A stretch of 64,000 nucleotides of DNA from Capitulum mitella (Eukaryota; Arthropoda; Thecostraca; Pollicipedomorpha; Pollicipedidae): assembly GCA_030062745.1 (NCBI GenBank), contig CP099839.1, forward strand, positions 32,036,904-32,100,903, read 5' to 3'. Of this stretch, positions 47,901 through 53,209 are shown in pieces. Below the pieces are notes generated by a model. The model made no database searches. It saw nothing but the letters and a program-made list of their open reading frames with translations, and had not been told where the DNA came from. A program made the position numbers and the translations under genes. Position 1 is the first letter of the stretch, and every line of letters starts with the position of its first letter.

Positions 47901-50900
47901 ACATGGAGTCGGTTGCTTATGCGTTTGGCTGTCCAAGACTGGCGAATACTTGCGACTTACATTGTTGGGGGACGCGGAAACCTGGCAGTTAACCACCGGT
48001 GCACGAAAAGAAATGTGCCGTTATCGTCCTTTTACACAAAAACAAAAACAAAGCTAGCAAACAGGAAATTTCGTTTCGGTCATGATGAATTTCAGCGAAT
48101 AATTTAGGCGTTCAAGAAACTTTGCGCGTTGGTTTTTCAGTCATTGATGATTTGGGAACCTCGACAAAGAAGAAGCCTCGGTTAGTGCGATGTGTGGTAT
48201 TTGCACGCAGTTTCCTGCTTATTTTATGCCTCTGTATGATTATGCTGCGTTAGCTGTTTGTGTTTTCGTATCGTACGCGCTTCTGCGTGTCATTTTCTGG
48301 TTTCCGTAAAGTACTTTCTTCAATGAAACCGTTATCGAGGAAGGTTCGAGACATTTAAACCTTTACGGAATTGATCAGGCTTCTGACGTAGGCAGTTAGA
48401 AAAGATGCGTTTGGTGAAGGAAGATGTGTATGGGGCGTGCACTTCCTGGGAAGTCACCTGAACAGATATTGTCCATTGTACAACACGTCTATTTTATGCG
48501 ATATATTTTTGTCGCATCGTCACATAGTCAGACGTTGAGAACAACGGCGTTTGACAGAAATGAGCGCATGCGACAAAAAGCTCTGGTTGAGTCTTAGGAC
48601 GACCAGGGCAGACTGCATGCCACAGCCCTAGTTGTCTCGAGTGTTTGGTCCATAATGTAGCCTCTTGCCGCGTAGCTTATATGTGGCTAGGAGCACGTCA
48701 TGTCTGGATTGAGTAGATGTCTACAAATGTTCTGCTTTCAAGTCGCTTGTTTCCTGTCATCGATCCCGTAGCTCCTGACAGGTGTTTCGGTACTGCGCCC
48801 GTCCTTCTAATTAGTCACTGAGCTCCATTGTAACTCCCCGTAATACAGGTTCGTGGGCCTCCTGTGCTGGCGCGTAGATGCGCAACATGTTGCCGCTGTT
48901 CGTAGATGCGAGCATGTTCCTAGGACCTAACGCTTCCCTAGAGGCGCTCCGTTTGCTAGATAAAGCGGTAAGGAGGTAGCTGACCTGCATCGGTGATTGG
49001 GCAAGTAACCACGCTGTGAGCCACATACGGTCAATCTGATTTTCCGTTGTTGAGGGAAGATTCGAGAACGCGTTCTGCGCGTTGCCCCAGTTCTTCACTT
49101 TGTCTGGCCATGTTTCTGCCGGTATAGTAATCGCTTCTTGCGTTCCTCGTCACGATAAATATTGGTAAACTACGAGAATGGAAAACAGTCTACCATAATA
49201 GCCGTTTGTCACGTTTGAGTGATGATGCTATGCACGGACGCAGACCGCGACTTAGCTCCCGGTTTGCGTCTTCCGAAAATCGTGGCGAATTCCCCGCACG
49301 CCCGATCTGAGAGCTCACGGTTCCATTTGTAGGAGGAGTTAAACATCAAATAGGTAGTTTTCGAAACGTGCCGTTTTATGTCCAGACCTGAAACGCTGAA
49401 GTTTTGGGCTGGCTACGTCTTCGTTACTCTCGGGTGTCTTCTTGCAAGGCGCCCGCTAAAAATACGACCGTGTTGTAGTGAGCGTGGCCCTCGATTGGGG
49501 CTAGATTGGGATCGTCGAGGCGACTCGAGCTCGCCTTTCCGGAACGAGGAGACAGTTGCTCATTTGGGAGTCGCTCCACTTTGTTAGTTTGAGCTGGCCT
49601 CTGTTGGTAGCTGTTGCCGTTACGGCAAAAAAAATGCAAAGCGCTTGAATGAAATATATCCAGAATTACATTTCTACCAGTTGGGAATCAGATTGGCCGT
49701 GATGTGAAAGGAAAACATGTTTTCAGCAGTAGACTGATGTCTGCGTCGTTTCACGTAACTTATCAACGTCTGCGCTTACTGTACGCAAGTTTCGCCTCCC
49801 GATGGTCGTCAAAGTGCAAATTTATTCTCAGTAGGAACTTAATTAAGGTTTTATTTCCTGCAGCCGAACGGAGAAATTTACGAGTTTCCTCCAAGAAAGA
49901 GCGCCCCTCTTCTGACACCCCGCCTGGAAATGCCCACCGTCAAGCCTGGCGAAGTCCCTCAGCTTCAGGCCGACGGTCAAAACACATTGTCGAATGCCAA
50001 TGTTGACCGCCCCACAAAACTCCAGATCGACGTCCTGAAGGAGGTGGACAAATTCAGTCGTGAGCTGTCCGATATCCTGGCCGACAGCACCAGCTTCCAG
50101 GGCAGCACCGGTTCGCCTCAAGAGCGCTCCCGGCGCGACGCCTGGAGCGACGACCCGGCGGCGCGAATCGCCCCGCCTCGCGCGCGCCTGTTTGACGACG
50201 GTCAGCGGCCGCCCTCGGAGACGGTGGCCGGGCGTCGGCGCGGCGAGGATGACGCCATAATGGAGCTAATGGGTCTGGAGAGCCGCCACCGGCCGGCGTC
50301 TGGTGGCCGCCAGGAGGGACCCTTCTTTGACGGCCGCTCCTGCCCCTCACGCTCCCCGACGGAATTCGGTCGCGGAGGGACGCACGACGACTGTGTCGAG
50401 CACATCTTGGATACCTACAAGGAACTCAGCAAGCAGGTTGGCGCGTCGTTAGAAGGCCGGAGACCCACTGCTCCAAGGCCGGGGGATAATTGGGAGGATT
50501 CGGAGGACGAAGAGAGAAGAGTCGTTACCAGCGTGTCCGAACGGGAGCAGTTTGAGGAGCTGCTCGATGAGCCTGAGAGAGAGGTGAAGATGATTTCTGT
50601 TGTTGAAACCTCGACGGGCGTGCCCAGTCGGCAAGTCGTGATGGATCAGCGGCTGGGCCTTGTCGTCAGTCGACCTGCTACTGACGACTGGGACGAAGAA
50701 GAGGCAAAGCCAAGACTGTCGCCTCCTCATGCTGAACTGGAGCTCCGATCTCCCACAAGAACATCGCTGGATGAGAAGAAGATTATTGAGTTTTCCCCTA
50801 GTCGCGTCGATCGCCGTTCACCTGCCACAAGAAAGGAACGTTCCCGCGACTGTGACATCACCAAACGAGGCGTTTCCGTGCAAAGGATAAGTGAAGAGAG

Positions 50901-53209: not shown

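Follow-up and report, generated by a model that had tools for sequence, protein, structure and literature searches.

A large open reading frame in the last intron of a PP1 gene of Capitulum mitella: nested gene or alternative last exon?

Does the large open reading frame in the last intron of a PP1 gene of Capitulum mitella extend the phosphatase, or does it belong to a gene of its own? We addressed this question in a stretch of 64,000 nucleotides (assembly GCA_030062745.1, contig CP099839.1, positions 32,036,904 to 32,100,903 of the forward strand), which we call the window and to which all coordinates refer. A sequence-only reading of the window had proposed that PP1 exon 6 may be spliced either to its normal tail exon or to a large exon with an RS-rich, SGNH-like product, and had named a nested single-exon gene as the alternative. 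Our analysis favours a separate gene, nested within the last PP1 intron and read from the same strand, over an alternative last exon, with a probability of roughly 0.58. The features needed for the argument are the following.

32856..53209, + strand: coding span of the PP1 catalytic subunit gene, from tblastn with human PP1; the joined exons translate intact
32856-32910, 36825-36956, 42851-43081, 44357-44571, 45269-45382, 46192-46335 and 53108-53206 (stop to 53209), + strand: PP1 exons 1-7
46336..53107, + strand: PP1 intron 6, host of the large ORF, 6772 bp, phase 0
48887..48967, + strand: candidate private first coding exon, 27 codons, phase 0, start context CAACATG, donor GCG/GTAAGG (4.5 bits)
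49864..52725, + strand: large coding exon of 953 codons and a stop; its unknown product is Arg/Ser-rich in the middle, with a degenerate SGNH-like domain at the C-terminus
49864..49929, + strand: 22-codon leader from the acceptor to the first ATG, coding-like, not frame-specific
49930..49932, + strand: first ATG of the large exon, G at -3
51850..52449, + strand: SGNH-like domain, residues ~663-862 (PF13472, E 7.4e-7, 30.3 bits; PDB 4c1b, E 0.0094)
52862..52867, + strand: donor-like site GAG/GTAGGT, 5.2 bits, 136 nt past the ORF stop (exon end 52861)
53776..53781, + strand: AATAAA from a motif scan, likely the poly(A) signal of PP1, possibly shared

The host gene is complete. Using a human PP1 sequence as tblastn query, we recovered exons 1-6 at 67-98% identity and the tail exon at 46%, and translation of the seven joined exons gave a 330-residue PP1 without internal stop. 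All six introns follow the GT-AG rule, and codon joins place introns 4, 5 and 6 in phase 0. Intron 6 begins with the donor AAG/GTGGGT (5.6 bits) and ends with the acceptor CCGCAG/CCC (4.7 bits). Exon 6 closes on a full codon (ILK), and Pro is the first codon of both exon 7 and the large exon. The sequence-only reading was right that the large exon lies in the phase-0 frame fitting exon 6 and starts with the same residue as the normal tail.

Along the window, the CpG observed/expected ratio in 1-kb steps is mostly 0.0-0.4 at 25500-31000 (except ~28000-29500) and at 33000-37500, in the flank and the 5' part of PP1; beginning with PP1 intron 4, the depletion is much milder (ratios of at least 0.79). 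The pattern is such as germ-line methylation of the 5' part would leave. CpG depletion was considered as a promoter mark and dropped: intron 6 is undepleted (0.93-1.24 by part) and introns 1 and 3 are depleted (0.20 and 0.45), which is compatible with either gene model. Elsewhere in the window, a GC-rich ORF of 328 residues (21704-22690) with many tyrosine motifs of the YETL, YDQV and YQSL type resembles the cytoplasmic tail of a signalling receptor; Pfam gave no match for it at E 1. At 13376-13655 and 14384-14600 lie two arrays, of 62- and 61-bp units respectively, which are built on similar words that run in opposite directions (ATGGCGA and TCGCCAT).

From stop to stop, the large frame spans 960 codons (49843-52725, with the stop codon of the large exon at 52723-52725). 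We simulated 8.5-kb sequences 200 times under an order-2 Markov model that kept the composition of the ORF region; their longest ORF had a mean length of 270 codons and reached 512 at most. Since the observed length surpasses this maximum, we took the frame as coding, and an exon of about 950 codons on the PP1 strand within the last intron, as had been claimed, was found at correct coordinates. Searched in two pieces across the 477-Mb genome (16 contigs), the ORF matched only itself with each piece. Rfam gave no match and no tRNA was detected; NCBIfam and PHROGs yielded one match each (E 0.23 and 0.081), which we treated as noise. A search for relatives of the encoded protein returned 5 pattern matches in viral contigs and 59 in prokaryote genomes, none of which was confirmed.

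We then asked how the large exon begins. On a simple acceptor matrix, the acceptor TTTATTTCCTGCAG/CCG at 49864 scores 3.5 bits, which ranks it third among the 423 AGs of intron 6 and above four of the six acceptors that PP1 itself uses (-2.2 to 7.2 bits); the description of a good acceptor in front of the large exon holds. Acceptor-like sites of this quality occur 1.45 times per kb per strand. The open stretch that precedes the first ATG is 87 nt long, so that an equally good site would fall in it by chance with a probability of ~0.04 in phase 0 (0.12 in any phase). We regard the acceptor as moderate, not strong, evidence that something may be spliced to the large exon. Its strength, its phase and the leader peptide would be consistent with the splicing to it of a coding exon that ends in phase 0, such as PP1 exon 6.

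The leader had been described as open and coding-looking. It is open, and it scores as coding against open intron and flank windows (P 0.019) and by synonymous codon choice alone (P 0.042), but this signal is not specific to its frame: another frame of the same 66 bp scores 8.4 against 8.1 for the leader, which was within the training set. Part of the coding signal is therefore composition. An in-frame stop lies at 49840-49842, 21 nt upstream of the acceptor, and in the control regions a run of 22 codons is free of stops by chance in 35% of cases. When the leader was compared with PP1 tails by shuffling, P was 0.42 against the exon 7 protein and 0.19 against each of three human tails. Among 909 windows of the ORF, 162 scored as well as the leader against exon 7 and 51, 25 and 38 against the three human tails. 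We rejected the leader as a mimic of the PP1 TPPR tail, as it shows no excess over shuffles, although it lies above most ORF windows against the human tails; the latter result would tilt slightly toward a fusion. An origin of the large exon by duplication of PP1 exon 7 was likewise rejected, with non-significant DNA similarity to either alpha-like PP1 copy (P 0.27 and 0.69).

A partner other than PP1 exon 6 may lie within the intron. Position 48967 is the top donor in intron 6 upstream of the ORF and ends the sole ATG-started phase-0 frame there with a donor of at least 0.5 bits; two shorter ATG-to-donor phase-0 candidates in intron 6 have weaker donors (0.36 and 0.29 bits). The resulting candidate first exon has a second in-frame ATG at 48878 (30 codons), and 48887 has the better context. 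An equally good donor with at least 27 codons appeared by chance in 223 of 2000 simulated introns (11%) and in 12 of 62 control tiles taken from the rest of the window, some of which contain real exons. Counting both strands of the window and including real exons, 63 of 245 candidates reached at least its total score. Its codon score is negative (-1.6), and tests of its codon choice gave nothing remarkable (P 0.18 with 30 codons, 0.32 with 27 and 0.10 on a smaller null). Because these chance rates are high and the codon choice is unremarkable, we treat 48887-48967 as a candidate, not as a finding. A genome search with its DNA returned no place other than its own, and the peptide joining it to the large exon matched at these two places only. 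A crude core-promoter scan of little power, for an Inr with upstream TATA or DPE, came back empty.

At the 3' end, AATAAA and ATTAAA are absent from 52726-53107, where only TATAAA (52887) and AGTAAA (52995) were present among the variants scanned; in addition to the AATAAA at 53776, one lies inside PP1 exon 7 at 53189. The donor-like site after the ORF has a chance of ~0.08 of being equalled within 382 bp. Given this donor 136 nt after the stop, we conjecture that transcripts of the nested ORF could use PP1 exon 7 (53108) as part of their 3' UTR and share the end of the PP1 transcript.

What would the large exon encode? The label 'RS-rich' stands for composition, since 30 of the 50 residues at 399-448 are R or S, but not for arrangement: the whole protein holds 28 RS/SR dipeptides versus 24 +/- 4.4 after shuffling, no excess. 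The RS domain of SR proteins comprises at least 50 residues with an RS content above 40%, and the large-exon protein falls short of this, because at most 15 of 50 residues are in RS/SR dipeptides. We also looked for an RVxF docking motif. The sole strict match, RRIRF at residue 698, was discarded as it lies inside the SGNH-like domain and is probably buried; a looser pattern also matches KIIEF at 306.

The SGNH-like module was upheld as a weak similarity. PF13472 matched at E values between 1e-5 and 5e-7, with 26.3 bits for the whole protein (E 1.3e-5) and 30.8 bits for a 171-residue domain, all below the curated cut-off of 32.9 bits, so that the protein falls outside SGNH/GDSL PF13472 by that measure. 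The top match among solved structures was the ORF1 esterase of ZfL2-1, a fish LINE (PDB 4c1b), at E 0.0094, or 0.052 with the whole protein. In this alignment the oxyanion Gly and Asn are kept (CLPG under CFPG, GGGND under VGTND). In block I, however, CDQSLRN is aligned to GDSIVRH, with Q under the nucleophile S of GDS; a gap of one residue could bring the next Ser to this place. The SGNH consensus has its catalytic Asp and His near the C-terminus (DxxH); this region lies outside every PF13472 and 4c1b match, and by eye there is no DxxH near the C-terminus. According to Schneider and colleagues, D279 and H282 form the catalytic pair of ZfL2-1, and S143Q, among other changes, abolishes its activity (PMC3905857). 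Because the aligned nucleophile Ser is Gln, the domain is probably an inactive pseudoenzyme.

Structure prediction added little. AlphaFold, run on the single sequence, gave two models of low confidence (mean pLDDT 40.5 and 41.1); their strands and helices mostly alternate, as they do in the flavodoxin-like fold of SGNH hydrolases. None of 914 Foldseek matches of the first model reached E <=0.001, and the best 50 of the 914 were mostly generic Rossmann-like folds; one among these 50, 6xpg (E 0.03), we take to be an SGNH-type esterase. The whole protein has three Pfam matches, and neither a zinc knuckle nor an RRM or LOTUS is one of them. When the genome was searched with the PF13472 profile, only this locus was among the matches, which, within the limits of the search, speaks against an active esterase-LINE family.

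The C-terminal exons of PP1 gave 24 genome matches, which we read as four PP1 loci and more distant phosphatases: the locus in the window (C1), a close copy on C10, and a beta-like pair on C7 and C9. The loci thus appear in pairs, alpha-like on C1 and C10 and beta-like on C7 and C9, which may reflect segmental or whole-genome duplication. In a tblastn search of the nested protein against stretches of the three other loci, one match (E 0.33) and no copy of the exon was obtained. Since this search yielded no copy and the genome search only the one in the window, the large exon is special to one PP1 copy. In the closest paralogue, on C10, the same junction (ILK/P) spans an intron 6 of 349 bp in which the exon was not found; PP1 can therefore do without it. 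Such single-copy placement is equally compatible with a new isoform and with a gene that was gained, or lost, at one of the PP1 copies.

How do these observations weigh on the gene model? For the nested gene we count an ORF beyond chance, a predicted phase-0 join to a candidate first exon whose donor outscores all others in the intron upstream of the ORF, a leader that is not significantly PP1-tail-like, the C10 paralogue in which the exon was not found and the frequency of intron-embedded genes in mosquitoes (PMC3689595). This frequency and the leader without a clear PP1-like trait are why we favour it. Against it count the statistical insecurity of the private exon, the shared strand, the standing of the leader above most ORF windows against human tails, the empty promoter scan with its little power and the lack of a canonical poly(A) signal between the stop and exon 7. 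An alternative last exon, joining exon 6 to 49864 into a protein of 1250 residues (297 from PP1 and a tail of 953), is possible but distinctly less probable. Part of what it calls for, an acceptor in phase followed by an open frame, is present, and the exon 6 donor (5.6) beats every donor between exon 6 and the ORF (best 4.5). The acceptor's rank and its small phase-0 chance, the coding-like leader that only 25-51 of 909 ORF windows equal against human PP1 tails, the mostly opposite-strand orientation of mosquito overlapping genes in the same source (PMC3689595) and the precedent of a mammalian PP1 isoform with its own spliced tail (PPP1CC2, 22 residues; PMC3474748) all point the same way. However, the shuffling tests, the 162 ORF windows that do as well against exon 7, the lack of DNA similarity to exon 7, the frame-unspecific leader signal, the absence of an exon copy from the three other PP1 loci searched and the availability of a first exon inside the intron argue against it. 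A more specific picture would be a 1250-residue isoform of this lineage in which the PP1 core, depending on the last exon used, is covalently linked to the Arg/Ser-rich body and the dead SGNH domain; the catalytic gene would then carry its own regulatory subunit instead of binding one through RVxF. We consider this picture tentative and a shade more doubtful still.

Within the nested-gene reading, and included in its probability, translation may start at the ATG at 49930, the acceptor being used by a non-coding 5' exon or, in a single-exon gene, not at all. The purine at -3 and the frequency of chance-open 22-codon stretches suit this variant, but the leader scores as coding and so good a phase-0 acceptor would be a ~4% coincidence; we hold it to be unlikely, as a minority share of the nested gene. 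As to origin, the sequence could descend from the ORF1 of a non-LTR retrotransposon, of which a part with the esterase domain was domesticated; this would be compatible with either gene model and has the ZfL2-1 esterase as top structure match in its favour. We think it improbable: the E value is marginal and weakens with the whole protein, no second copy was found in the genome, the profile search matched this locus only, an ORF2 would not fit into the 382 bp that separate the stop from exon 7, and zinc knuckle and RRM are missing from the three Pfam matches. Most improbable by far is an unproductive switch, in which exon 6 would be joined to 49864 and then 52861 to 53108, giving an NMD-prone transcript that lowers PP1; the 5.2-bit donor would permit it, but such a donor is expected by chance at P ~0.08 and a poison exon needs no open frame of 953 codons.

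The favoured nested gene would be transcribed from its own start, presumably an own promoter inside intron 6. A short private 5' exon, best represented by 48887-48967, would be spliced in phase 0 to 49864, and PP1 itself would splice normally from 46335 to 53108. The product would have ~980 residues: its body, charged and rich in Arg and Ser, would probably be disordered, and the SGNH-type domain would come after it. Since its nucleophile is lost, this domain would probably bind rather than hydrolyse. If this reading is correct, the locus encodes an orphan protein that is probably an SGNH pseudoenzyme. Its frame is in phase with that of the host, which may be a plausible halfway stage to a fusion gene.

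To our knowledge, PP1 is targeted by separate regulatory subunits; if the fusion were true, a built-in tail of 950 residues would be a new way to target it, whereas its delivery to splicing bodies, as suggested by the sequence-only reading, would be speculation. Among the matches listed from the open-licence PMC literature, no title on PP1 with an alternative last exon or SGNH, on nested genes and PP1, on SGNH with pseudoenzymes, splicing or arthropods, or on SGNH with an RS domain concerned a gene of such kind. The nearest known relative of the proposed fusion is PPP1CC2 (PP1 gamma 2), a mammalian testis isoform that likewise joins the PP1 catalytic subunit to an isoform-specific C-terminal tail by splicing (PMC3474748); its tail has 22 residues versus the 953 proposed here. 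The likeness of the large-exon protein to the ZfL2-1 ORF1p esterase and PF13472 consists of a weak sequence match and the aligned oxyanion Gly and Asn, whereas the nucleophile Ser is replaced by Gln, the very change that is reported to abolish ZfL2-1 activity (PMC3905857). The insect protein Oskar carries in its OSK domain an SGNH-like domain described as being without catalytic function (PMC3905857), as we predict for the large-exon protein; however, Oskar was not among the six PDB sequences matched at E <=10, and the LOTUS domain is missing from the three Pfam matches. With nested genes in insect introns, finally, the locus shares a whole coding unit within a host intron. Among mosquitoes, ~10% of predicted genes overlap another, predominantly in opposite orientation, and ~87% of embedded genes lie in introns (PMC3689595); the large exon, in contrast, lies on the same strand as its host and in phase with a host exon.
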